From Muricea muricata (lineage: Eukaryota; Cnidaria; Anthozoa; Malacalcyonacea; Plexauridae), in NCBI GenBank assembly GCA_963855995.1, contig OY979716.1:20083040-20147039 (forward strand): 64,000 nt of DNA. The letters run 5' to 3'. Position numbers and translations under genes: made by a program. The notes under the pieces were generated by a model, which saw only the letters and a list, made by a program, of their open reading frames with translations, had not been told where the DNA came from and made no database searches. Positions 7,952 to 63,375 of the stretch are shown here, piece after piece. How positions within the stretch are numbered: the first letter of the stretch is position 1; every line of letters starts with the position of its first letter.

Positions 7952-8950
7952 TTAGCGTGTCTGTGCCGTGGCTTCTGTGCTCGGTGGAAGTGGTGCTACT
8001 CTTCTTTGACCCGAACGGCGAAGAAAACGCACTACGGCGCTGCGGAAGGTGGGACTACTGAGCGTATATATGAACGGGTTAACTGCGTTTATAGCGACCG
8101 TCGGAATACCAATCTTATAAAACAGAGCAGCGTCAACATATTCTCGATCGAAAAGTATCATTGCAAAATATGCTAGTTCTGGTAAAATAGCCACAGCAAA
8201 CAGAACTGTGATTAACATAAGCCGACGTATTGTCTTCGTTTTCTTTTGTATTGCTAACTGTGCACTTCGAGGATCCTGTTCTGTGGCTTCCTGTTTTAGC
8301 CTCATATGGATGATAATCTTAGAATAGACGATAGTGATGACAATAAAGGGTACAATATACATAAACGACAGGCCAATCCAACCAATAATTATCTTGGAAA
8401 GCGACCAATTGCTTTCATCAGAACTAAAGAAGCAGTAATATGTTGTTTGGTCCATCTCTAACTCTCCAGAGAGTACCAAAGGGCCCAAAACCGCAGTAGG
8501 CCAGGCGAACAATAAGAAATACTTGAGGCGGTTTGTCGTCATGTTTCGATGGATCAGTGGTTTAACAATGCCAAAGTAGCGCTCCAGTGAAATGGCGGTC
8601 AACGTCACTACGGAAAGAATGATGCTGCAATATATCGTGATGGTGAAAAATTGACAAATCAAAGTCGCCGATAGGTCGGAGAGGGCATTCGATTGGTCGA
8701 CGCAGATTACTACAACTAATTTGACAATTGAGAAGGTGCTTGAGATGAGGTCGGCTACGGCGAGATTTAGGAGAAGAAAATTGTACAGAGTGTGCAGCCA
8801 TGGACTGTACGCCATCACTACAATCGTGATGCCGTTGCATACGCAGCCAATTACCGATATAATAGCGTAGCAGACAAACACTGGAATATCTGAGTTTTGG
8901 ATCTGCCGATGTGCCTGGGTCTCGTTAAAGTGGGAAATGTTGAGCAACAT
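7952..8950 (-). CDS. Class A (rhodopsin-like) G protein-coupled receptor, single exon
   Basis: An intact 332-residue frame has seven hydrophobic segments and class A landmarks: N39 in TM1 (CNG), D67 in TM2 (LAVAD), C99 before TM3 and C173 in the second extracellular loop for the usual disulphide, E123-R124-Y125 at the end of TM3 (ERY for DRY), W150 in TM4, P201 and Y209 in TM5, P257 in TM6, and N291-P292-xx-Y295 in TM7. Two N-glycosylation sites (N4, N9) lie in the short N terminus, and the C-terminal tail is basic then Ser/Thr-rich. The TM6 CWxP motif is absent (AILPE). It should be a plasma-membrane receptor signalling through G proteins. The intronless form and ERY fit the large peptide/amine-like receptor sets of cnidarians, but the ligand cannot be named. 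The ATG at 8950 is the first in frame and precedes the glycosylation sites. Confidence 0.93.
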   Translation of the reverse strand: MLLNISHFNETQAHRQIQNSDIPVFVCYAIISVIGCVCNGITIVVMAYSPWLHTLYNFLLLNLAVADLISSTFSIVKLVVVICVDQSNALSDLSATLICQFFTITIYCSIILSVVTLTAISLERYFGIVKPLIHRNMTTNRLKYFLLFAWPTAVLGPLVLSGELEMDQTTYYCFFSSDESNWSLSKIIIGWIGLSFMYIVPFIVITIVYSKIIIHMRLKQEATEQDPRSAQLAIQKKTKTIRRLMLITVLFAVAILPELAYFAMILFDREYVDAALFYKIGIPTVAINAVNPFIYTLSSPTFRSAVVRFLRRSGQRRVAPLPPSTEATAQTR

Positions 8951-9630
8951 TATCGGTTGATAATTTTATGACTCTGAAGCGTTCGCTAATGGCATTAGCT
9001 GTAGATGTGTGTGTATTAAGGTGTTGCTTTAGTCTAACGTTGTTGCTTTTGCTATAATATCCCTTGTTACAAACAATTTGATCTCGGTAACCACTGGATA
9101 AGCAGGTGTGCAGTATAGATGTGCAGCTGAAAATAAGAAAGACTTTAACCATAAGTATATATCTGAATTTTTTAGGGAAAGATGAACTGCTGAATTTATG
9201 AACTAATGTTAATTATTTTCTGGGCATGGGAGCTGCTTATTTTCCTATACCGCGTGCAAAACCATCACGTGTCTGTTGACACGAATTCGTATGTGATACA
9301 AATTGCAAATGCAGTAAATATGCTTTTCTCAATTCAATTTATCATCTGCTCAAATTGGACCGTTCCAGTTCGGAAAAGCTATATAAATCGCAATTCAGAT
9401 TTTCAATCAAAGTATCATATTAAATATCATGCATTAATTTTCTAAAAATGAAATGATTTGTGTGCATTTTATCCATTAATCGCACAGAAAAAGAGTGGAT
9501 TTTTCTATGTTATGCGGCAGGAACCGGTTGTTCAAAGCTGGGTTAGTTTACGATTCACAACGCCACTTGCTTGACAATGCAATGTTAATTTTTAGCTTTA
9601 AAACAAGCGCTGAACATATGGAAATAATAA
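8951..9630. other. Upstream region of the GPCR gene
   Basis: No other gene recognised. This should contain the GPCR promoter (minus strand), but I see no clear core element. Confidence 0.4.
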
Positions 9631-16980: not shown

Positions 16981-16989
16981 TGTCGCATG
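16981..16989 (+). repeat. Target-site duplication TGTCGCATG, left
   Basis: The nonamer is repeated exactly at 21920-21928, directly outside the two inverted ends of the RING-type transposon. Confidence 0.85.
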
Positions 16990-19900
16990 AACAAGGAGGA
17001 ATTTCATTTTGAGCCAATCAGCGTGTTTGTTTACATTTTCGCAATAGGCCAATCAGAACGCGCGACACGCAAAAACGTAATCAAAAGCAGTGAGAAAATA
17101 GCACCTGGTTTAAAGCCTTCGGTGAGCTTCGTCTTTAACTTTTTCATTTTAAAACTTAAAAAATCTAGTTCAGCGACACCTCCTCTTTAAATTCCTCGTG
17201 TAATTTGTGGAATTTTGACCTAGAACCGAAGATATCGACGTCGAATAGCAGCCTTTTTTGAGCACGCGAAGCAACAATTATTTCACTGTGTGCACAAGAA
17301 TTAATTTGTGTACCTGCAGAATTTTGTACTTTTATAAAACGGCTCTAAACAATTTTTCATAAACAAGGTATTCTGTGGTAACAGTTAAAGTGAATAGTAC
17401 GATAGCAAATCAAAATATTCAAAAGAGCGATAATTTTGCCGCCAGATCGAAAATTAGAACTATGCAGTAAATGGTTTTCTAGCGGCAAGCGGCGGGAAAA
17501 AAGTATCAAAAAACATCGTGCTTTTTAATCTCTACAATAGCTTCTGGAAAACAGCAACGCAAAAATGCCTAGGTTTAGGAGGTCTTGCAATAATCCCTTT
17601 CACGAAGAGTGGTCGTCGTCGAAAAATGACGGGGAAACAATCGTGAACCTTACAGGACGAGGTTTGCTAACTTTATCGAAGGTTTTCGGAAGTTTTATTG
17701 AGGCAGAATTGGGGAAGAAAGTTCCTCGTGGTGTAAAATTCCTTTGCACTACGTATCTTCGCGAATGTTTTAAAAAGCGAAAATTCACCAAATTTCTCCC
17801 CAAAGATTCTTCACTCGACCTTGAAAGGAAAGTTCAAAGACAGGTATGCAAAGTTGTCATGATCAACTTTGATCAACAGGCAGACAGCTAGTGTAGCTTT
17901 TTTTAGGTTCTTAATCTGCAGGAAAAATCATCATTATTTTAAATAAACTACTGTTTTAGTTTCTGATAATTTTATGTCAATCCTTTGTAACAGAAACAAA
18001 CACAAAGTCAGAGTGGGTTTTACATTGCCATTAGGAAAGCAAAACATGTTCATTTAAAACAAATTTTTGAAGAAAAACAACCCTACATTATGATTTATTT
18101 GATAAGTGGTACTCATAGTTATAGCACTTTGGGCTCACTAAGATAGGGAAAGCTATAATATATTAAAACTTTACTTCAAAAAATACAGCATAGGTAAAGT
18201 GGTAAACCCCAAATTAAATACTGTAAACAGTCCTAACATGCACATGGGAAAACATGCTCTTTTTATGTAATTACCATTTAGCTTAGTACTTTGGATAACA
18301 ATACAGAAATATCAGTTCTTATTGAAAATGAGCAATTGAATGCAAATGTTGGTCAGTCTTGCTCTGGCAATCAGCTGGGTGATGTATCAGTTTGTACAGA
18401 ATATTGCCAAAACCAGCCAAACACCAGTAACCCTGAAGAATCACAAGATCTCGAAGAGCTGCCACAAGATACTGAATACAACAGCAGTCAGTTGAGTAAC
18501 GAAACGACCATAACTGTGGGTTCTCACAGCCACACAACTACTGTCGACAGTCAGGAGTCTGTTCTATTAAAAAAACCCTCAGGAGTTAATGTTGATGCAG
18601 AATGCCAAACAACAGATGGCGTTTTCTTGTCAGGTGAAGAATATGATAAGCTATTAAAACAAGCATCACTTTGCCATGATTTCAAAAATAATCTCAATAA
18701 CATCAGACCACTTTTGCAAAATTTGGAAAAGCCTGAGATGAATCCAGATGGATTTCAAAAACTTTGCAGAGATTGTGGTGCTGAGAACCTGTATTTTTGT
18801 ATCTATGATGCTATATGCACAGAGCAGATGTCGGATGAACGCAAAAATTTGGTTAAAGTACGTACAATGGTGATCATCTATATTATGGTATACTCACAAT
18901 CGCAAAGATGTAATTCGTTCCAGATAGCTTTATCCAGAACACTCCAGCAGTTTGGAATTAGTGAGAGGGGACTGGAATCTCTTCGCAATCTTGGTATCAC
19001 TGCACACCCTCGCACAGTGAAAGCCCAGTCAAAATTGATGTCTTCCGCCCATTCTGATACCGTCCAAAGCTTCATTGAATTGGCTATTGAGAATGAGCAT
19101 CTGCTTTTGTTCTTTATTGATGACTACCATAATATTCACACACAGCATCGACCTGAAGCCAAAACACAAACACAAGCTATTCACATGACAACCCTCCTCT
19201 TGAAAGTATTTCCAGAGGTTAAAGCCATCCCCAATAATGTCGATCTTCACCCTAAAAGTCCTGTAACAATTCCTGATTTTAAAATCTTTATGGCAAGAAA
19301 TATGGACAATCTTTCAAAAACGTATGCAGAAATCATGCCTGATTGGATTGTTGCAAAATACTTTGACCCGGAAGCTGAAAGACAAAGACTGTTAGTTCAC
19401 GACTATCAGCAAACTGAAAACCAGCAAATGAGATGTATGGATAACACCAAGCTTGTTGACAGTCTTGAACTACCTCTTAAATCATGTGATAATGTTCTCA
19501 CAGCAGTTAAAAGAATCCTGTCCAGTGGATTAGCAATTTACCTTTATAAATTTGTTGCTCCCTTTGTTGGTGACTGGCCAATGCAGTTCTTTGCTCGACA
19601 ACTGGTTTACTCCAATTCTCCCTGTTCTGCAGCTCTAAAGAATGTCATCCCTCTAATTGGACCACTCCACATCTCTTTGAATGCCAGAGAATGTATATTG
19701 CTGATTTTCCACGAGATCTTTGCAGACCTCTACAAATTCATCTTTGGTAAAAAAGCCAGCTAGCAAAAAAACCAAAACCCTGGAGGACCTCCCTACTGTT
19801 GGAAATCATCTATGGTGGGTGGACACTCATACGAGATATGGTTCTCTCAGTATTTTTCAAGTGTAAAGATATTGAGTATTTGACACTTGTCAATCTTCTT

Positions 19901-21919
19901 GATACCTATGTTCCACTGGTCTTAACCATCTACTCTATTGCATTTAAGTGCAACAAATACGAAGAATTTTTAGTATCATTGCTAAAATGTTGGGTCATGT
20001 GTGTCGTGTTTAGAAGACGCCACTACAATAAGGCATTGTTGGTTACCTTGTCCATATTCCATCATTGGCAAGAAAATTCCCCGACAATGTATGAAACCTT
20101 GCGCAACTACTTGGTTACACTGGATGAATACCCAGTTGAGAACTTCCACTCTGTTCTACGAGGAAGAACCAAGGAAACAGATTCTGCAGACCAGATAGCA
20201 TTTAAAGCCAAGGAAATTGATGCCTGCAAACACATGTTACAGTCATTTCAGTCAGCATTTGTACCACCAAGAAAGTTTACTTTCAGCCGAAAGAAAATAG
20301 ATGGGCTAAAGGCAAAGGCTGCTGAATTCCTGACCAACAAATTTGAGACCCTCCATGATAACCCAAACATGGCAGCTGAGCTACCAAGAAAACCAAGGCA
20401 GCCCAAGTACGTGACAAAGTGGAAGCTTCCAAATTTGTTTGGTGAGAAAGTAGTGACCAACGGAGTGCTCCCTTTAGGATTTACCTCTGTTGAAGATCCT
20501 CCCAACCCAGCAAGGTAAATGCTTTACCCAAGTTTGTAATAAACAGTAGAATCATTAATAGGACAACTTTAGAATACCTGATTACTAGGTTTCTTGTTAT
20601 AGCAGCTTGTGCACAACCCTTATATCATCAGAAATTTAAAGTTATTTGTTTTGATCAACCTTCCAACTCTTTAAACCACATGTTTAGTAGTACATCCTTG
20701 ATTGCCCTACCAGCTATATAAAGAGAAACAAAATTCTGATATCAAATCAAGTGCCAAGTGGCTAAGTATGACTAGGTATTCCAAAGTTTTGTTTGCAGCT
20801 AGACCAAGTTAGAATATTTTGTTTGTATTTAGGGTCTTATAGGGTAGAAAGCCTACACATATAAAAATGCACAACTTGTAGCAAACCTGCATCAGACTTC
20901 TTTCACAACAAGCTTGTTCAGTGTTCATGAGTCAACAACTTGTCAACAAGATGTGACATTTTTGCATATGCAGATTAGAAAATATAATTTCGTTTATACA
21001 GAAAATGCGACTTACCTGGCTGCAAGAAGAGTAGCGCTCTATGGACGGTGTTCCGAGGTTGTGCTCATTCATTCCATGTCGAATGTCTTCTACCAGATCT
21101 CAGCGTCTGCAAGATTTGTCAAGCGACTTTGTTGTTCAAGATTGAAATTCTTGACAAAACTGCAAACGATGCCGTCTTTAATACAAACCCCGATTCCACC
21201 GACGATGGCGACGAGGACACAAGTGACGACGACGACAGTGGATCAGATGACGAGACAGAATGTCACGAGAACAAACAACCAGAACAACCAGAAAGTGTGC
21301 ACATTCTGTTGCGAAGAATAAGTCTGTGGCAAAGACCAGAGGTTCCACAACAATAGTATGTCGATTCCTTTGTGTTTTTAACTCTCCCCAATGTTAAAAA
21401 CTGTTGCATTTGAGTATAATTGCCCTTGGCTTGGGGTATAATTCGCTTGCAAGTTGTGAACACAAAAGCAAAGAATATAAAGTCTTTACAAAAAAACATT
21501 CAACAATGGCCGACTGACGAGACCGGATATTATACAAGATCTTTGCAAGACGTTTACAGGGCGTCACATGATGACAGGTATTAAATATTAACTTTTTTAC
21601 AGAATTCTGCAGGTCATGCACAGTGAAATAATTGTTGCTTCGCGTGCTCAAAAAAGGCTGCTATTCGACGTCGATATCTTCGGTTCTAGGTCAAAATTCC
21701 ACAAATTACACGAGGAATTTAAAGAGGAGGTGTCGCTGAACTAGATTTTTTAAGTTTTAAAATGAAAAAGTTAAAAACGAAGCTCACCGAAGGCTTTAAA
21801 CCAGGTGCTATTTTCTCACTGCTTTTGATTACGTTTTTGCGTGTCGCGCGTTCTGATTGGTCTATTGCGAAAATGTAAACAAACACGCTTATTGGCTCAA
21901 AATGAAATTCCCCCTTGTT
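16990..21919 (+). mobile_element. 4.9-kb DNA transposon with long inverted ends and a RING-bearing protein
   Basis: The ends are inverted copies starting aacaagg(a/g)ggaatttc. The arms are 16990 to about 17333 and about 21598 to 21919, roughly 330 bp with scattered differences. An exact 9-bp duplication (TGTCGCATG) flanks both ends. One three-exon gene on + fills the interior. A 9-bp duplication is typical of Mutator-like (MULE) elements and near the 8 bp of KDZ and hAT, but I did not recognise a MULE, hAT or KDZ transposase in the protein, so I leave the superfamily open. The right end lies 26 bp from Helitron copy B. Confidence 0.85.
17565..21356 (+). pseudogene. Transposon-borne large protein with C-terminal RING-like finger (one frameshift)
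   Basis: Exons 17565-17843, 18282-20514 and 21002-21356 join with matching phases and GT/AG borders (GTATGC, GTAAAT; acceptors catttag and tttatacag). Exon 1 gives 93 codons starting MPRFRRSCNNPFHEEW. Exon 2 encodes an acidic, low-complexity start, then a conserved-looking core with FFIDDYHNIH (19110-19139) and, further on, DEYPVENFHSVLR (about 20125-20163). Exon 3 opens with KCDLPGC and continues C-x-H-x2-H-x2-C, then C-x2-C, a RING-H2-like zinc site, followed by a strongly acidic tail. A stop (TAG at 19761) plus a one-base shift near 19755-19770 breaks exon 2, after which the frame is open again. It is presumably the transposase: the acidic clusters could hold catalytic residues, but the D-D-E set is not assigned. 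I associate the family with uncharacterised multicopy cnidarian proteins. Confidence 0.7.
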
Positions 21920-21928
21920 TGTCGCATG
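21920..21928 (+). repeat. Target-site duplication TGTCGCATG, right
   Basis: Exact match to 16981-16989. Confidence 0.85.
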
Positions 21929-23825: not shown

Positions 23826-23957
23826 GGATAGCGTGATCCATGCACTTGGGATGTTGCTCGATTTTCGGAAAGCGTAAAAATACACTCGCCTGCGGCTCGT
23901 GTATTTTACACTTTCCGAAAATCTCGCAAAATCCCGCGTGCATGGATCACGCTATCC
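23826..23957. repeat. Palindromic element just upstream of CTSC
   Basis: 'ggatagcgtgatccatgca' (23826) is mirrored at the right end (to 23957). A second inner pair, 'attttcggaaagcgtaaaa.tacac' and its complement, surrounds a short GC-rich centre. It ends 89 bp before the CTSC start codon. Confidence 0.85.
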
Positions 23958-24046
23958 TGCACGCAAAACCATTCAGTAATCCTTTAATTAATGACACTGT
24001 CAGCAGTCAGCATCACATGATTTGCAAGTGTCTGAAAGTGTGCACG

Positions 24047-27000
24047 ATGTTGCTTTATAAAGTGCTCGTTTTTGCAACAATTTTCGCAGCTGTCGAAGCC
24101 GATACTCCGGCAAATTGTACATTCGAAGACGTCCAGGGAATATGGACATTTTATGTCGGCGAAAATGGTCACGATAATACGATAAAATGTGATTCGAGTT
24201 TCAAGGTTGTTACAGAACTTCGCGTTCACCTGCTCTTCCCAGACGTGGCATTGGATGATAACTATAACATGGGATTCTGGACAATGATTTATAACCAAGG
24301 ATTTGAAGTTGTTTTGAATGGAACAAAGTATTTTGCCTTTTCAAAGTACAAGGGTACTGTGAGCTATTGTGATCAGACTCTGCCGGGCTGGTCACATGAT
24401 GCCCAAGATGTTAGTCGGAACTGGGCATGTTATTATGGTAAGTCAAAATGTCAGAGATAGTAACAGGGGCTAAGTTGCATTTTAATTTTTATTACCTGTT
24501 AGAGGGACAATTATTGTCCCTGGCTGTGCCTGCACTCTGCTAGACCTGTTGGCAAAGCATATTGCTAGGTTCATGTACATGGGTAAACCATGTTTACATA
24601 AATTGGAACAATTTGCCATCCAGCAATGCACAGCCTTTGGTTTTCGAAAGACTTGAAACACATGAATTGCTCTGTGATGTGTACTTGCGTAATTAGACTT
24701 TGCTTCGGCTTTACAAAAAGGTGTGTCTCCACATTGCTAGATAGGCAACTGTCAAGCAAACTGGTGATTCCAAAAAAATCCATAACCCACCCACATTTCC
24801 ACCGTCCAGAGAGAGGGAATCATCTAAAGAATGTCTTAAATTTCTATAGGATGTCTAGAGACAGGGTGGTGTTGTTAAGTTCCTCCATGGGTTGGGGAGG
24901 GGTTCTTTTCTGAAACAACCCATTGCATCAAAATATGTAAACAAGTTTACCCATCCATTAGGTGTATAGTTAATTTTAAACTAATGTTACATGTGTTGGC
25001 GCGGTGATAGAACCACAAAGAACTAATAGTTTGTTCGAATATATCTAACCATCACATACAAGAAGAAATTCCCATTTTTTGAGGTGTGTCTGGACAAAGT
25101 GTATTCTGTTGAAATGTAGTTTTATTTTAAGCAGTGAACAATTCTATATTGTTTTGCAGACAATTTCTTATGCCTCAGTTTTTGCAAATTTTAAGAGATA
25201 GGCTTGAGAGGTATATGTATCACCCCCCCCCCCCCATTAAATTTATGACCACCTGCAAACTGATGGTATACCTGTAATAACAATTAATCTCCTACCTGAA
25301 ATACAAAAATATGAAACAAACCATGCTATGTGAGAACACAAGTCCCTGCGTGTAGCTTAGAATATGAAAATGTATTAATTGTTGGATTCAAAACCTCCAC
25401 AATCATCATCAGACATGTTGTTTGTTGCTATGAAGGGCAAATTATCCTCACCCTACCCAGGGTGAATTGTCAGATCCATTGAGGTGAATTTTAGCATCCA
25501 ACATGTCAATTTTTAGCAGGCAACTCTTTCCTTTGCCTTTCTCATTACCCTACCTCCCACCCTCTTTTATCCTTACATATCCCTAACCACTGGGAAATGG
25601 TGATTATATTCTTTTATTTTCCTAATTCCTGATGTTCTAGAAATCCATTGTTATTGCATATTTCTGGTAAGAAATTTAATGTTATTATATGTACTATCAG
25701 GTTGCCACAAGGTTTGCCTGTGTAGGAGGCTAGCTCAAAAGCTGCCTTGGTCATGACTCACTTCAAAAGCTGTTACCGGTATCACTGACATTGCTTATAA
25801 ATATAGAAATCGGTTGATATGTATATTTTAAGCCAATTTGTTGAAGTATCGGTATACACTTCTTGTCACTAGGTGCTAGGGACTGCAGAGTATTTTTGGG
25901 ATTGGTAGGAATTACACCTGAGGTCCCAGGGGCATGGTGCCCCAAGTAACATTTTGAAATTTAGACCTCCAGAATGGCCACAATGCTTCTGAATTTAACA
26001 GTTACGAGAAAATAATACATTAAATGTTGTACCAAACATTTGTATATACTCAAGGGCGGCGAGAGCCGTAATCGGGCCCCAGGACAAGCAAGTGATTACA
26101 CATTATGGGCCCCCAACCCTCTTGTCAGTAGCCCAATGACCAGATGTTTTATCAAGATTTCGGGTCCCCAAACCAGCCCAGGCCCCAGGTGTTTTGTCCC
26201 CCCTGCCCCCCCCCCCTTTTGCCAACCTTGTATATCCTAAACACTATTATGACTGTATAAAATGTTGAAAATGTTTGATGTTTCACTCAGTCTTTTTAAA
26301 GTGATAATAAAGGCTATAAGCAACAATAAGAATTAATTTAAAATAAAAAAAAAACTACATCTACATAAGAATAATTGTTGGGGCTAAAGACTAAAGTTAC
26401 AGGTAACTCTAATAGCTTAGGTCTAAACCTTTGAACTCATTCTGCTGCAAATACTCATGCATTGAACAAAGCTGTGCACCAGCTATTTTTTCCCAACTTT
26501 GGGAAAAAATAACCCGTCTCATAATGCTCTAAACCCAGCCCACATTCCCTAGAGCACTGGGCTTGGCAGAGCTGTGCAACAGCAATGCCCAGGTCTGGAT
26601 CAGATTCGACTCCTGTCGGAGTTTCTAAAATGTTCTTGGTCTAAATTTCTGCACAAGTCATGTATGATTTTAAAAATATCTATTTTTTAGAATTATTCTG
26701 TTTGTAATGTGACAAAACTATATTATTTATATGTTAGATGAATGTGCCAATTAATTAATAGTAATTCTTTCTACCATTAGTGAAGTTTAAGACTCATTTG
26801 CCATTTGGAATCATCTACTGTAATATTGATTGAAATGACACAAAATCTTGCATTATATGCTGTATATGTACTATGTATATACTTGTCAAAAATTCCTATT
26901 TTACATGGTCAAAAAGCATTTGACACATAAAAATGTCAATGAAAATTTGGTTGTGTAAAAGGGGCTTAAACGGAAGACAAGTCTTCATTATTTTTCAAAG

Positions 27001-35646: not shown

Positions 35647-35653
35647 CCTCAGC
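35647..35653 (+). repeat. Target-site duplication CCTCAGC, left
   Basis: Matches 41807-41813 exactly, outside the inverted ends of the P-type element. Seven bases match; the family usually gives eight. Confidence 0.75.
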
Positions 35654-36270
35654 CACAGAATAGTAAAGAAGAGAAAGCTCACTCCTTTGATCTTTTTGAC
35701 GCTGCCGCCACTAGACGCAACGCGCGTGCGCCGACGGCCGCCATGTTTCTGGCCAGGTCATCGCAGCCATAATAATAGGAAATTGTATTAGCTGGAGGCG
35801 TATTTACTGCTAAAAAACGATATTTTTTCTGATTTTGCCGTTTGTCGTGTCATTTTTGGTTAGAATATCAAAGTTAAAGCTACGTGGACTATTACTTTAA
35901 TGTTATGAAGCTTGAAACGATTTTGAAAGTCATCGAAATCATTCGAAGGAGTGGAGAGCAAACCAAGCATTATTTGCATGAATGATATTAAAGTACAGTA
36001 TTATTGCGAGTGTAAAATTTTACACACTTGAAAAACAGCAATCGATTTAGCTTGTCTTAATTCATTTTTGAACACATAACTGTCATGTCCTCTATCGGAT
36101 AACTGTTTACTGCATGCATAAGTTTCTATTTTATATACAAATATAAACTATTAAACGTGGTTACAATACATGTGATGTACAGATGAACATGCAGCATTAG
36201 AAAGGTATTTTTAGTTGTGTTGTCTAATTTTTTACGTGAATATGCAGTTGCAGTTAGCTGATCACGGACA

Positions 36271-37359: not shown

Positions 37360-40300
37360 ATGTCAGCTTCAAAAAAACGCAAACCCGGAGGAACAAGAAC
37401 ACATTGCTCGGCCTGCAACTGCTCAAACAGCAAGGCATCGCGCCCGGACCTTAGTTTTTTCCGATTTCCTTCAGCCGCGACAAGGTAATGCGTAATGCTA
37501 TATTACAACTAATTCTATTATAATATAACAGCGTCATTAAAAAAGTTTCTTACAAAGAATTGCAAACAACCTTCATCAATATAGATCTAAAGAATGGGTG
37601 GTTGCGTGTCGACGTCAAGACCTTTTGAACAAAACGCCGAAATACTTGTACGTCAACTGCAGACTATGCTCTGAACACTTTGAGGATTGTATGTTTGTAA
37701 ATCCAGCGACGAAAAACCGTTTGAATGATATGGCAAAACCTAGCCTTTTTAACTTAAAAAACCCACCTCCAAAAGTCGGTTGTAAACGTCGAATTATAGA
37801 GAAAAAAGACGAGGCAGTGGAATCTGAAGGTAAATTTACGAGAGAGGATATACCCAAGGAGTGAAAGGCGGCGGGGTAGGATCATCAAAAAGGCATTCGA
37901 GTGCTGCAGGCGCGAGACCCGGTATGGGGCTATGTGGTTTCTCCGCCGAAAATTTTTAAATCCAGGGTCTCCCAAATGCTGTTTCATGCGTTTTTGGCAG
38001 GTATCTAACACAATTTTGACCGTGAAAACCCCCGCAAACAGTTGCCTCGCAAACTGCCCCGTGGCTCTAGCACCCCTGTTCACAACATGCCTTTAGCTAC
38101 TCGTAAATATCATTTCATCTTTCGGCATACAGCGTAACCTAGCTTCGTACAACACAAGTAACCAGGCAGTAGGCATTACTCTATATATAAAATAGTACTC
38201 TACAACATTCGTATGCCTGGTTACTTTTATTCTATTGTATACTTTTTTCGCAAACCCAAACAATGGTATCCAACCTTGTCAGTAAGCCATTTCTGTTGTG
38301 ATTGAAAACAAAACTGTTGACTATAAACAACTGTAACGGATAATGTATTACACCTCCAGACCATCGGTTGCATAACTAGAAAAAATCTATTTGTGCTTAG
38401 GAAAAAGACGGAGAAAAAACGAAAATACAGAGACCGTTTCACCCGTGCCCGTCGTCTCACATTGTAAGTCGAAATCATTAAGAAATCGTTTACAGATATT
38501 TACGATTTTATTATACGGTATACTTCACTGTATACTGTAGCTATATTTATATAAAATAATAATTAACATGTTAAGTAACGTCAAATATCAATCGTCATTT
38601 AATACAGCGCAAGATAGTATCACTGATGCGGAAAACCAAGAGGAAGATACAAATTTAACATGTACGAATGCTGAAAAAGGTACAATACGACTTGTAAACG
38701 AGTTATAAGGAATTCTAATACCAAGCAAAATAACGACTTTAATACCAACGTAAAATAACTACTTAAAAAGGGGTAATTAAATGTATATAATTCAAACATA
38801 ATTATAGAATCGGACGGGGCTACTACGTCGGATTTCACCAGCCAAACTAGTCCAGATCTTACCAGCAACACTCCCAGAAAACGAAAACTAAAACAGGCTT
38901 ACAAGTCAAAAAAAGACCAAGTGCAGAAAAAAAGAAAAATCACTGGAAGAAGCGTTATCAAAGTTACCAGACCATCTGGCAAATTTTATAAAAGAACAAG
39001 TTAAACTTTCCTCCAAGAAAAGTCATGGCAGACGATACTCACCTGAAATGAAAACCTTAGCACTTTCAGTCTATCATGCAAGTGGGAAAGCCTACAATGT
39101 GTTGTCAAAGTTATTTGTACTGCCAAAGAAAGCCACTCTAAAAAGATATATTGCAAAAATTCCAACTAGTGCTGGTATATGTCAAGGAGTTTTAAAGGCA
39201 ATTCAACAAAAGGTGGTCCATATGAATGACATGGAAAAGCTTTGCACCCTCTGCATAGATGAAATATCCCTAAAAAGTCATCTTTACTACAGCATCCCAG
39301 CAGATAAAATCATTGGTTTGGAAGACTTTGGTGGGGGATATAGAAGTAATAAAATTGCAACATCTGCTCTTACTATACTAATAAGAAGCATTTCTGGCAA
39401 TTGGAAGCAGCCGATTGGATATGCCTTAGTAAACGGTTCCTGTTCAACAGATATCTTAGATGGGCTTGTTCGGGAGGCCATTGATAAGCTTGATGCAATT
39501 GGCTTGAAAGTCAAAGTTGTGATGTCAGATATGGGCTAGAATTTTCAAAGCTGGGCTAATTATTTAGGAATTACACCCGAAAAACCATGGTTTGTACACA
39601 ACAAACAAGTCATCTTTCTCATGTTCGACCCACCGTATCTTATCAAGAGCATTAGAAATAATCTTATGAAATATTCATTTAAGTTTTCAAAATATGTTGC
39701 TTCATGGTCAGATATAGAGGCATTCTTCAACAAAGATAAATCCCTTCCTATCAGATGTGCACCAAAACTTACCGAAAGACATGTCCACCCAAATAATTTT
39801 GCTAAGATGAAAGTCAAACTTGCAACACAAATTCTGAGTCATACTGTTGCAGCTTCAATATGTACATATGTCAGCTTGGGTGTCCTGCCACAGTCTGCGA
39901 TGGGCACAGCAGAGTTCATTTCCCAATTTGACTCCCTATTTGACAGTGTTAACAGTTCTACACTAAGTTCAGCTAAAGATCTTAGACGACCTATCACAGC
40001 AAAATCCAACCATGTACAGTTTCTTAACAAAACCATTAGTTTCATAAAAAGCTTGAAAGTTTATGAAGGTGTTAGATGTAACAGGGAGGATCAAATGTCT
40101 CAACGGGTTGCTTGTGTCCTTGAATGCAATTCTTTTAATCTGGGAGGACCTAAAGCAGAACCACAATTTCAAGTTCTTGTTCACACGAAGATTAAACACA
40201 GACCCACTAGAAACTTTTTTTGGTACAATTCGACAGCAGGGAGGAAATTTTTATAACTCATCGCCAACTCAGTTCACTAGAGCATTTAGGAAACTACTTT

Positions 40301-40926
40301 TTAGTTCACTTCTTAATTCCAGTACTGGCAATTGTGCTGAAGATTTGGATTCACTCCTATCACAGTTTTCAAGCAACTCCAACAATGCTGTTCTGGTCCA
40401 CCCACCATCTCAACCACAGACACTGAATATTGGTGGTACAGACTACAGAGAGCTGGATGTAAGTTCCTCTATTGTTAAAGAAAATGCAGTGGCATATGTT
40501 GCAGGATATCTTTTAAAGAAGTGCTTTGATATTCATCAATGTTCATCTTGCAAAGAAATTTTGGCATCAACAAATTTGGATTCATCCAGCAAATTACTTT
40601 GCTATTTCAAAAACTATAAAGATGACAACAGTTCACGATTACAGATGCCTTCACAGTGCTTTCTTGACTACATTTTGCGCCTGGAAGACAGTTTTGTAAA
40701 ACATTTTTCAGTGTATACAAAGTCAACAAAGGTTGGTGATGATCTGCTGAAAATCTTTAAGTCCATGCCTGTAAATTTCCAACAGTGTCCAGCATTTCCA
40801 ATGGAGTATATGTTGAAGCTATTTCTGAGAATGCGTATCTACTACACCATAAAATTTGCAAACAGGGACTTCGCCTCTACACCAAAGAAAAAAAGCAGGA
40901 AATACATTAAAGTAAGTCATTTATAA
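37360..40926 (+). pseudogene. THAP-domain P-element transposase (THAP9-like), broken
   Basis: Exon 37360-37484 (GT donor) and exon 37585-37829 encode the THAP DNA-binding finger: CSAC near the start, the core Trp (KEWV), CSEHF and a variant AVPTIF box (AKPSLF). A small exon (about 38607-38680) and the long last exon (from about 38807) follow. After a shift in the A-rich run near 38930 the frame reads FIKEQVKLSSKK, then the catalytic core with CIDEIS (first Asp), VVMSDMG (second Asp) and DPLETFFGTIRQQGG (Glu near 40206-40250). Lesions: the A-run shift, TAG at 39537-39539 right after SDMG, and a one-base shift between about 40070 and 40130. The frame ends at 40926, though a GTAAGT at 40912 may be a donor. 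In life such a protein binds the element's ends and catalyses cut-and-paste transposition using GTP in P elements; this copy cannot. Confidence 0.88.
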
Positions 40927-41806
40927 AAGCATCTCCTTTCATGACATGGAAACTGAACATACAGCAGTTGTGAAGATTTGAACTGAGCTGTCTATTTCAG
41001 AGCATAAAGCATAGAGGCTAGAGCAGAGAGGGAACAATGTACTTTCTATTTGGGATTGGTACAGTTCAAGAGAACAATTAAGGGACGTTTAAAGGACTTT
41101 CACTGCTATTTCTCAGTATCAGGAAATGAAATTCATGGACTAAAAAATTGATCTTTATTTTAAGTGAATTTGCGAAGTCTATTCTGTTGATGTACGTGAT
41201 CAGCTAACTGCAACTGCATATTCACGTAAAAATTTAGACAACACAACTTATAAAACACCTTTCTAATGCTGCATGTTCATCTGTACATGTAACTCACGTT
41301 TAGTAATAGTTTATATTTGTATATAAAGTAGAAACCTATGCATGCAGTAAATAGTTATCCGATAGAGGACATGACGCAGTTATGTGTTCAAAAACGAAAT
41401 AGGACAAGCTAAATCGATTGCTGTTTTTCAAGTGTGTAAAATTTTACACTCGGAATGGTACTGTATTTTAATATCATTCATGCAAATAAATGCTTGGTTT
41501 GCACTCCACTCCTTCGAATGATTTCAATGACTTTCAAAATCGCTTCAAGCTTCATAACATTAAATTAATACTCTACGTACCTTTAACTTTGATATTCTAA
41601 CCAAAAATGACACGACAAACGGCAAAATCAGAAAAAATATCGTTTTTTAGCAGTAAATACGCCTCCAGCTAATACAATTTCCTATTATTCTGGCTGCGAT
41701 GACCTGGCCAGAAACATGGCGGCCGTCGGCGCACGCGCGTTGCGTCTAGTAGCGGCAGCGTCAAAAAGATCAAAGGAGTGAGCTTTCTGTTCTTTACCAT
41801 TCTGTG

Positions 41807-41813
41807 CCTCAGC
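41807..41813 (+). repeat. Target-site duplication CCTCAGC, right
   Basis: Exact 7-bp match to 35647-35653. Confidence 0.75.
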
Positions 41814-46829: not shown

Positions 46830-49398
46830 GAAAACATGGAACTCTTTTTACGACGGCGTTACCTAAAATCATTTGAAGGTATAGGCAAGCTGAAAGACCA
46901 TGAGCAGAAGATACACATAGACAAAGACATTACACAGGTAGCTCAAACATACAGGAGAGTACCTTTTCACTCGCGGAAACCAAGGTGATGAATGGATTGA
47001 GGACAATATTGCAAAGGACATAATAGAGCCTGTTGTCCATGAATGTACAGATTGGGTTAGTGGACTTGTTCTCACACCCAAGCCCAGAAATGCAAAGGAA
47101 GTTCGAGTGTGTGGTGATTATAGACAAGCCAGTAAAGCAGTTAAGAGAGAAAGGCACCCAATTCCAACTGTGGAAGAGCTTATGCACAACATGGAGAGAG
47201 CTGTACATATAGCAAAGATGATTTGAAAGCAGGCTACCACCAGATACTCCTTGCCAAGGACTCGCAGTCGGTTACAACTTTTTGACTGCCCTTTGGCATC
47301 AATGCAGCCAGTGAAGTTTTTCAAAATGCAATTCAAAGAGCTATCCAAGGATTAGACGGTGTTAAAAACATTGCAGATGACATTATTGTCTGAGCAATAC
47401 TCACCAATAACACGAACAGAGGGTAGAACAACTATTTGCAAGGCTTCAAGAGAAAAACCTTACCGTCAACCCTAATAAATGCCTGTTCAACCAGACAAAA
47501 CTTTTTCGGGTTTTTCGGATTGCATTAATTTGACATCCAATGGTATCAAGGCTGATCCGAGTAAGATCTAGGCTATCAAGAATACAGCACAACCCAGAGA
47601 TGTAAAAGAATTAAGAAGTTTTCTTGGACTATCAAACTATTGTAGCACTACTACATGAACTAACTGTCAAGAATACCAAGTTTGAATGGAAACCAGTGCA
47701 TAAAAAAGCATTCGAAGCTATTAAACAAGCTGTTCAGAAAGATTGCATTATGCACTATCACAACCCAAAGCAAAGAAGTGTGCTCACAGTTGATGCAAGC
47801 CCAGTCAGACTTCGGGCAATTTTATCAAATGTTGACTCACAAGGTAACATTCATAATGTAACATATGCTGGTGGGTCACTGTCTAAAGTTAAACAGAAAT
47901 ATTCGCAAACTGAGCGTGAAGCGCTCGCAGTGGTGTGGGGGTGCGAAAAACTTTATTTGTACTTGGTGGGCACCAAATTTACCATTGCAACTGATCATAA
48001 AGCGCTCGAAATCATCTACAATGCAAGAATGAGCGATGGGCTCTGAGGCTACTGCAATATGAATTTGATATCCAGCACAGACCAGGTATTGGAAACCCAG
48101 CAGATGTCCTATCCCGACAACCTTTACACCAATGCTCAGAAAACAATGCTAGCAATGTTGCCGATCAATATGTCAATTTTTTAGAGCAACACTCCAAAAG
48201 ATATGCGATGATACGCAATGAATATCAAAGATATGATGGTAGCTACCAAAACAGATCACCAACTACAGAATGTCATATCTAACATTCAATCAGGAAAATG
48301 GGCTAAGACGAGTGATCTATTTTCTGTTAGGCGTGAACTATCAGTGACCAATAATGAATTGCTTTTACTAGGTACACAAATTGTTATGCCATCAAAGTTG
48401 AGGATGGAAACATTAAAACATGCTCATAAAGGGCACCAAGGAATTGTAAAGACAAAGAAAGCTTTAAGAACAAAACTATGGTGGACCAAATTGGAAAAAG
48501 ATGCAAAGGATTATTTGCAACGATGTCATGCTTGTGGCAGTGTCTTGGGCAAGCTGACCCACCAGCACCAATAAAATTTAACCAGATACCAAGCAAACCT
48601 TTGGAGCGTCCTAATGTGGATTTGTTAGGGCCATATACTACAAGAGAAACACTAGAGGTACGTATGGACAATGGTCGCCAATTTAATGCTAACGAGGCTC
48701 ACCAATACATGAAGGGCCCTGGTTTCCTTTATCGAACTGTCACTCCATTATGGCCTCAAGCTACTGGAGAGGCTGAATCGTTTATGAAACCTCTTAACAA
48801 AGCTATACGAGCAGCTCAGTTGGAAGGCCTCGACTGGCGAGAAAAGATTTACTCCTTTTTATTAGCTTACCGTACTACTCCACAGTGTAGCACTTGTGTG
48901 GCACCTGCACGGCTTTTATCTAATCATGAAGTTCGAAGTACCATACCAATGTCACCTGAAAAGAGAGAGGTGGTTTACAAAGAGCGAGCTGCACAACAAA
49001 GCAAAAGAAAATGTGGAGAAGAAGCAATGCAAGGCAAAAACATATGTTGACAAGAAGAGAAGAGCAAGAGAATCATAAATTTCAGTTGGAGATACAGTTC
49101 TGGTTAGACAACATTACCGTAATAAGTTAACATCGTTATTTGATCCAAAACCTTTGGTTGTGACCGCAGTGAATGGAGTAATGCTTACACCGTCGAGAGA
49201 ATAGTATTTAGTTACTAGGAATGTCTCTCATTTCAGGAAATACCTTCACAGTGAAAGCGATGCATTGAAAGCCAAACATGCGTGTGATGGAGAGGATAAG
49301 GATACGGACAACGGGGCGACAGGAATATGTAAACAAAGAGAAGTTTCAGAGTCAAGAATATATCCACTGAGGAATAGAGGCAAACCAAAATACTATTG
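46830..49398 (+). pseudogene. Ty3/gypsy-type retrotransposon pol, decayed
   Basis: In order on +, across several frames: a reverse transcriptase (WVSGLVLTPKP, VCGDYRQA, HPIPTVEEL; NIADDIIV in place of the YxDD box near 47370-47393), RNase H (TVDASPVRLRAILS, YSQTEREALAVVWGCEK, ATDHKALE at 47780-48010), the integrase zinc site (HAHKGHQG...CHAC at 48418-48535) and the end of the integrase core (VDLLGPY, then DNGRQF, LLAYRTTP). The RT palm is cut by stops and small deletions, and most of the integrase core between VDLLGPY and DNGRQF is missing. The last frame ends at 49398 (YPLRNRGKPKYY). Gag is not clear and I found no matching LTR pair, so this is an internal fragment or a copy with unrecognisable LTRs. 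Confidence 0.85.
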
Positions 49399-58864: not shown

Positions 58865-60806
<1,942 letters not shown>

Positions 60807-60827
60807 CAAACGCTCAGATTTATTTAA

Positions 60828-61326
60828 AGTGCTTATGAAACGAAATTTTCTCCAACAATTTTCGTATTGCATTGGAAAGATCAGTTAAAATCACTGTATA
60901 ATTTCTTTGATAGAATTTTTGTAACTGCCTTACTTTTCGAGATATTCAATTCTATTTGATTTGAAAATTACCTAACCAGTGACGTCATACTGCATAATGA
61001 GCGACTGTTAGATTGCTTATTTTGTAGCATATAATAGTGGAAAATAACTAAAACTACACTAACATGTGTGTAGGCTATGTTTAACATCCAGACCTGGGTA
61101 TTTAGGTGTTATATCTTGAGTACTTTTTAAATTAATTCAGCTTTTTTGAAAAGTGATTATGCAGTATGACGTCACTGGTTAGGTAATTTTCAAATCAAAT
61201 AAAATTGAATATCTCGAAAAGTAAGGCAGTTACAAAAATTCTATCAAGGAAGTTATACAGTGATTTTAACTGATCTTTCCAATGCAATACGAAAATTGTT
61301 GGAGAAAATTTCGTTTCATAAGCACT
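60828..61326. mobile_element. TTAA-flanked foldback element, 499 bp
   Basis: Arms of about 180 bp, starting AGTGCTTATGAAACGAAATTT, are inverted (60828-61008 and 61153-61326) with few differences. TTAA stands directly outside both (60824-60827, 61327-61330). There is no coding content. Long arms with TTAA fit Kolobok-type or piggyBac-type MITEs. Confidence 0.82.
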
Positions 61327-61408
61327 TTAACACTTGCCGACATGTAACTTTAAACCACTAACTATAGCCAAACTTATTGTGAATAGTAAAATATTATCTG
61401 TCAGTTGC

Positions 61409-61434
61409 CTGATGATCGCCTAAGCGCGTGAAAC
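61409..61434 (+). ncRNA. Third hammerhead-like core
   Basis: CTGATGA (61409-61415), a short stem II CGC.CTAA.GCG, then GAAAC (61430-61434) after an extra 'cgt'. The extra bases between stem II and GAAA weaken the case. It is followed within 25 bp by a (TA)n tract. Confidence 0.3.
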
Positions 61435-61481
61435 TCTGAGTAGCGACAGAAAAAGTATATATATATATAATATACACAATG

Positions 61482-61658
61482 AAATAGACTTTGGTTACTT
61501 CATAAAGTTTTATTCACAACAAATCTGTTTCGTATGACAAGCAATGCTTGCCACACTCGTCAGGTGATGATCGCGTCTGTGGTGTGTGGCAAGCATTGCT
61601 TGTCATACGAAACAGATTTGTTGTGAATAAAACTTTATGAAGTAACCAAAGTCTATTT
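61482..61658. repeat. Near-perfect palindrome, 177 bp
   Basis: Arms of 70 bp, 'aaatagactttggttacttcataaag...gacaagcaatgcttgcca', are identical apart from the extreme ends. The loop of about 30 bp is 'cactcgtcaggtgatgatcg' followed by 'cgtctgtggtgt'. Confidence 0.9.
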
Positions 61659-61722
61659 GTCTATTCCGCTCTACTTCGGTATTGAGCACTTTCTTCATAT
61701 ATATGGTTTTATTTTTATTCCT

Positions 61723-63375
<1,653 letters not shown>

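Follow-up and report, generated by a model that had tools for sequence, protein, structure and literature searches.

An inverted-repeat DNA transposon of Muricea muricata with 9-bp target duplications and a gene for a putative transposase ending in a RING finger

A stretch of 64,000 nucleotides from the anthozoan Muricea muricata (contig OY979716.1, assembly GCA_963855995.1; hereafter the window) contains, between positions 16981 and 21928, a DNA transposon with long inverted ends and a three-exon gene whose predicted product terminates in a RING finger. The transposon unit is 4930 bp long between two 9-bp direct repeats. Its features are listed below; both introns (GT..AG) are inferred from the reading frame and the conservation of the flanking exons, and residue numbers follow L011, one of the closest copies elsewhere in the genome (L numbers designate matched loci).

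16981..16989, no strand: left target-site duplication, TGTCGCATG (an exact duplication of this length in 16 of the 20 copies retrieved)
16990..17290, plus strand: left terminal inverted repeat, AACAAGGAGGAATTT...
17565..17843, plus strand: exon 1, 93 codons, with a C-x4-H ... CxxC finger whose final Cys is replaced by Tyr in the window copy
17844..18281, plus strand: intron 1
18282..20514, plus strand: exon 2, transposase core, with a frameshift near 19757 in the window copy
19116..19139, plus strand: IDDYHNIH block, with D280 (19119-19121) and D281 (19122-19124), candidates for the first catalytic Asp
19569..19580, plus strand: GDWP block, with D431 (19572-19574), candidate second catalytic Asp
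19659..19682, plus strand: GPLHISLN block, of which GxxHxxxN is conserved
20123..20161, plus strand: DEYPVENFHSVLR block, with E620 (20138-20140), candidate third catalytic residue
20515..21001, plus strand: intron 2
21002..21356, plus strand: exon 3 with the stop codon, encoding the RING and then an acidic tail
21006..21119, plus strand: RING finger, ligand pattern C-x4-C-x12-C-x-H-x2-H-x2-C-x7-C-x2-C
21619..21919, minus strand: right terminal inverted repeat
21920..21928, no strand: right target-site duplication, TGTCGCATG

The inverted ends are 301 nt each and identical at 297 of 301 positions. An earlier sequence-only reading had given them about 330 bp, a length that is roughly reached when a further 17-nt inverted match (17312-17328 with 21598-21614) is counted in; its exact element boundaries and its flanking nonamer were both recovered. 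At the base composition of the window, the probability of one given 9-bp match by chance is about 7e-6. Within the window the element is present once, as judged by BLAST.

The left end was searched for in the whole assembly (453 Mb, 74 contigs), with 40 scored places among 149 candidates. Thirty-six of these places, leaving out C1:114568841, C1:87428650, C1:33837966 and C1:25215624, gave 20 intervals. An exact 9-bp duplication lies directly outside the AACAAGG.. terminus in 16 of the 20 copies, the window copy included, so that the duplications anticipated elsewhere in the genome are indeed present. Agreement is 8/9 in L014 and L019 and 5/9 in L018; L017 has two end matches in the same orientation and was left out of the duplication scoring. 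Since the duplications of L020 and L021 are reverse-complementary to each other, these two copies may represent one insertion within a repeated segment, and the independent exact duplications number 15. They share no strong consensus beyond a T as third base, seen in 10 cases out of 15. The copy termini take three main forms, AACAAGGGGGAATTTC, AACAAGGGCAGATTTC and AACAAGGGCGAATAATG. Inverted ends accompanied by a target duplication of fixed length across many copies are what defines a cut-and-paste DNA transposon, and the element of the window is confirmed as a real member of a recently mobile family of this kind.

The family is large. Genome-wide, the first part of exon 2 is matched at least 94 times, with identities of 30-100%. 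Scoring covered 87 candidates out of 354, which makes this a lower bound for the family, although certain loci contribute two pieces. Exons 1 and 3 adjoin exon 2 in many of the relatives, such that all three pieces recur. Five sister copies at different sites (L009-L013), flanked by different duplications, share 98.9-99.1% identity with the window copy; identity among the five is 99.3-99.7%. In a subfamily at 54% identity, ten places have nearly equal scores (494-500 bits), a sign of recent spread. A distant group (L059, L061 and L062) carries the core and the RING within a single exon. The predicted protein of L059 (L059:32-3193) also has a long C-terminal extension beyond the RING with no Pfam match; stretches such as SNACTVIS and FDSHQHG may be reminiscent of cysteine proteases.

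Five copies are mirror-image elements (L023:254-4282, L025:209-4278, L026:319-3988, L027:1259-5046 and L028:549-4602). These consist almost wholly of an inverted repeat, the arms measuring 1604-1866 bp and matching each other at 98.4-99.4%, with the 3' part of the gene on both halves. All five are flanked by an exact 9-bp duplication, and nature may thus have provided in them a test of which end sequences are sufficient for movement.

The gene in the window copy is broken. Its exon 2 is divided into two open reading frames (18282-19763 and 19751-20518) because of a frameshift near 19757, which is private to this copy in an alignment of six copies; exon 2 is open for 737-745 codons in all five sisters. 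The window copy also has 33 private substitutions, versus 5-14 in the sisters, and the Tyr of its exon-1 finger is Cys in all 12 other aligned rows and in 5/5 sisters. The three-exon gene of the sequence-only reading thus stands as regards consistent phases at the exon junctions, but not as an intact gene. On visual inspection, a very short intron was rejected as the cause of the break, given that the GT..AG candidates there measure about 13-33 nt and that the sisters read through in frame.

A scan of genome contigs with alignment A1 matched 30 stretches, of which one, L066, was confirmed. The contig that carries it is 4276 bp long, comes from a metagenome sample with the mark 30cm and bears the title of a Bacteroidetes genome. 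L066 encodes a single 930-codon frame, 26-29% identical to the animal proteins, in which an N-terminal C..H..CxxC region precedes the core and all eight RING ligands are present. Its termini start AACAGGGCGGA, similar to those of the element itself. The contig is probably a eukaryotic contaminant, with another eukaryote as the host. Six acidic residues (D280, D281, D431, E470, D541 and E620) are invariant in all eight rows of the distant comparison, L066 included. A GxxHxxxN motif following D431 is found in 8/8 rows of alignment A2 and in 13/13 rows of A1. We take D280/D281, D431 and E620 as the candidate catalytic triad, by analogy with other DDE enzymes; the spacing is 150 residues from D281 to D431 and 189 from D431 to E620. 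Three acidic residues invariant across distant members are the mark of a DDE transposase. In comparisons of L011 with seven other copies, the nonsynonymous divergence (dN) is 0.24-0.35 and the synonymous divergence (dS) is saturated, indicating that the protein has been maintained under selection.

The element of the window is therefore very probably a gene-decayed member of a recently active cut-and-paste DNA transposon family with a putative DDE transposase. The three-exon gene would encode this enzyme, and its core may adopt an RNase H-like fold. In such a scheme, the long inverted ends would be recognised by the N-terminal zinc finger together with the core, and D280/D281, D431 and E620 would cut both ends of the element. 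The transposase would then join the ends to the two target strands 9 bp apart, and gap filling would produce the 9-bp repeats. The C-terminal RING would most likely bind a ubiquitin E2, and so tune the level of the transposase or act on host factors at the complex; alternatively, its role may be purely structural, in dimerisation. The window copy could be moved, if at all, only by transposase supplied from intact sister copies.

Several observations weigh against this interpretation. The choice of E620 over E470 or D541 follows an assumed resemblance to other DDE enzymes. A profile search of the PDB with the family matched no solved structure, and predicted models were of low confidence, with a mean predicted local distance difference test score of 42.8 from the single sequence and 33.4 from a three-row alignment. 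Among the sister copies, exon-2 dN/dS ranges from 0.16 to 1.36 with 6-13 changes per pair, too few to reveal selection within the sister group. L066 has no 9-bp duplication, its flanks being ATACAGCCC and ATACCATGA. The RING is incomplete in 5 of 33 exon-3 rows: L019 is without the last ligand pair, the first Cys is Ser in L050 and Trp in L054, the third Cys is Phe in L062, and in L039, the fifth of these rows, the first Cys falls outside the stretch read. All Pfam RING matches are below the curated cut-offs, the best having an E value of 0.0013. Two single-sequence PDB matches (one each, E 1.7 and 1.5) were dismissed as chance.

The C-terminal finger itself had been correctly recognised: its eight ligands, in the order of a RING rather than a PHD finger, are complete in 28 of the 33 exon-3 rows, near-identical copies counted. 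The RING may catalyse ubiquitin ligation. There is a nearly even chance that it is instead a structural zinc module with no ligase activity. The C-x4-C spacing of the first pair, the ligands lost in the four rows L019, L050, L054 and L062, and the presence of Vps8/Vps41-type RINGs among the below-cut-off Pfam matches would all fit a structural module. A CPxC motif in the last pair is typical of E2-binding RINGs, and its occurrence in L040, L048, L059, L060 and L061 argues for the ligase.

The affiliation of the transposase was sought in profile collections. Pfam was scanned to an E value of 10, HMMER filters removing most matches above about 0.1, with four pieces of the window, nine proteins, 13 alignment members (five of them among those nine) and L066. 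No Pfam transposase family was matched by any of these proteins, in agreement with the initial failure to place the core among catalogued transposases. The sub-threshold Pfam matches outside the RING are scattered and confined to single members (e.g. DUF4921, E 0.0035), and NCBIfam gave one irrelevant sub-threshold match for four proteins; no model of either collection matches the core above its cut-off. The description of the superfamily as unassigned accordingly holds at the level of sequence hidden Markov models, and at that level only. No relative was found among viral contigs by scanning or among phage records by tblastn. Similar proteins may occur in Rhizophagus fungi. Among the titles and abstract openings listed by searches of the open full-text literature, none pointed to the transposon family, which Repbase may contain.

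The transposon may be a very divergent Mutator-like element (MULE), of the Rehavkus type for instance, rather than a superfamily of its own, a possibility that we rate at somewhat under even. Rehavkus elements are marked by a PHD finger and by a minisatellite before the 3' end. The GPLHxxLN that follows the second Asp resembles the CxxH..N of MULEs. MULEs are reported to have duplications of 8-11 bp and ends often of hundreds of base pairs, and Rehavkus a 9-bp duplication, ends of 26-400 bp and a PHD finger (PMC6446971); the 9-bp duplication and 301-bp ends described here fall within both sets of values, and the three conserved acidic residues are a further likeness. One Ghost MULE is reported to carry a RING open reading frame, and one MULE of Phytophthora a RING of the C3HC4 type (PMC6446971). 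A zinc module with the transposase, PHD in Rehavkus and RING in the Ghost element, is a likeness as well. Unlike MULEs, the family described here matches no MULE profile in the Pfam scans, has GxxH in place of C/DxxH, begins with AACAAGG.. termini and has kept a C-terminal RING throughout. The C/DxxH motif expected between the second D and the last E in Mutator/MULE, hAT, P, Kolobok and Dada transposases occurs only scattered, in one or two rows.

Membership in the transposase-like family that Pfam models as DUF6589 (PF20231) is a less likely alternative, though one with some claim to attention. It is suggested by apparent resemblances in motif: a conserved His-Thr stretch preceded by an Asp block, and a G-x-x-H stretch beyond the second Asp; PF20231 itself was not matched by any scanned protein at E values up to 10. 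The KDZ group (Kyakuja, Dileera and Zisupton) shares with the present family a large eukaryotic transposase, but gave no profile match. The Zisupton duplication is 8 bp (PMC12730594), versus 9 bp here. The Kolobok target is TTAA (PMC9587614), which is not what was found at the fetched copies.

Kinship with the Chapaev/Transib (CMC) group, as a RING-bearing relative, is very improbable: the RING is C-terminal here and not N-terminal after a Chapa domain, the 9-bp duplication is longer than those of the group, and between the second D and the E the zinc motif C(2)C is conserved in 0/8 rows and H(3-4)H in 1/8. The CMC group gave rise to RAG1, and the joining of a RING to a DDE transposase would be a likeness to both Chapaev and RAG1, from which the present family differs in the position of the RING, the duplication and the zinc motifs. 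Two Chapaev subgroups carry a RING finger (PMC4411706), and the EnSpm duplication is given as 3 bp (PMC12730594). A transposase with its own RING, singled out by the sequence-only reading as unusual, is unusual indeed but not new: the RINGs of Chapaev and of the Ghost and Phytophthora MULEs make such a fusion rare rather than unprecedented.

A broader proposal is more tentative. The family may constitute an uncatalogued superfamily whose hosts include animals and one or more other groups of eukaryotes. Its marks would be 9-bp duplications, termini of the form AACARGG, the GPLHxxLN motif in the core and a C-terminal RING that was fused to the transposase before the hosts diverged. The RING would be an integral ubiquitin-ligase part of the transposition machinery, acquired independently of RAG1; we hold this to be possible, at distinctly less than even strength. 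Should the RING prove to be an active ligase built into the transposase, a single protein would connect transposition with ubiquitin signalling. RAG1 does so too, but the present enzyme has no detected relation to it and is encoded by many copies within one genome. Here the family seems both young and abundant, which makes an assay practical.

Other features of the window include a P-element-like transposase in pieces at 38892-40926 (TNP-like RNase H N, E 4.8e-33; Tnp_P_element, E 2.7e-8). It lies between two inverted stretches of about 630 bp (35648-36270 and 41191-41812), which are 93% alike and may be its terminal repeats. A retroelement remnant at 47615-48043 retains an RNase H-like domain of reverse transcriptase (E 1.4e-25). 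A rhodopsin-type G-protein-coupled receptor is encoded in a single open frame on the minus strand at 7955-8965 (7tm_1, E 4.8e-31), and a cathepsin C exclusion domain is found at 23837-24457 (E 3.1e-39); the two together indicate that the host is an animal. Long TA-repeat palindromes occupy 60600-61821.

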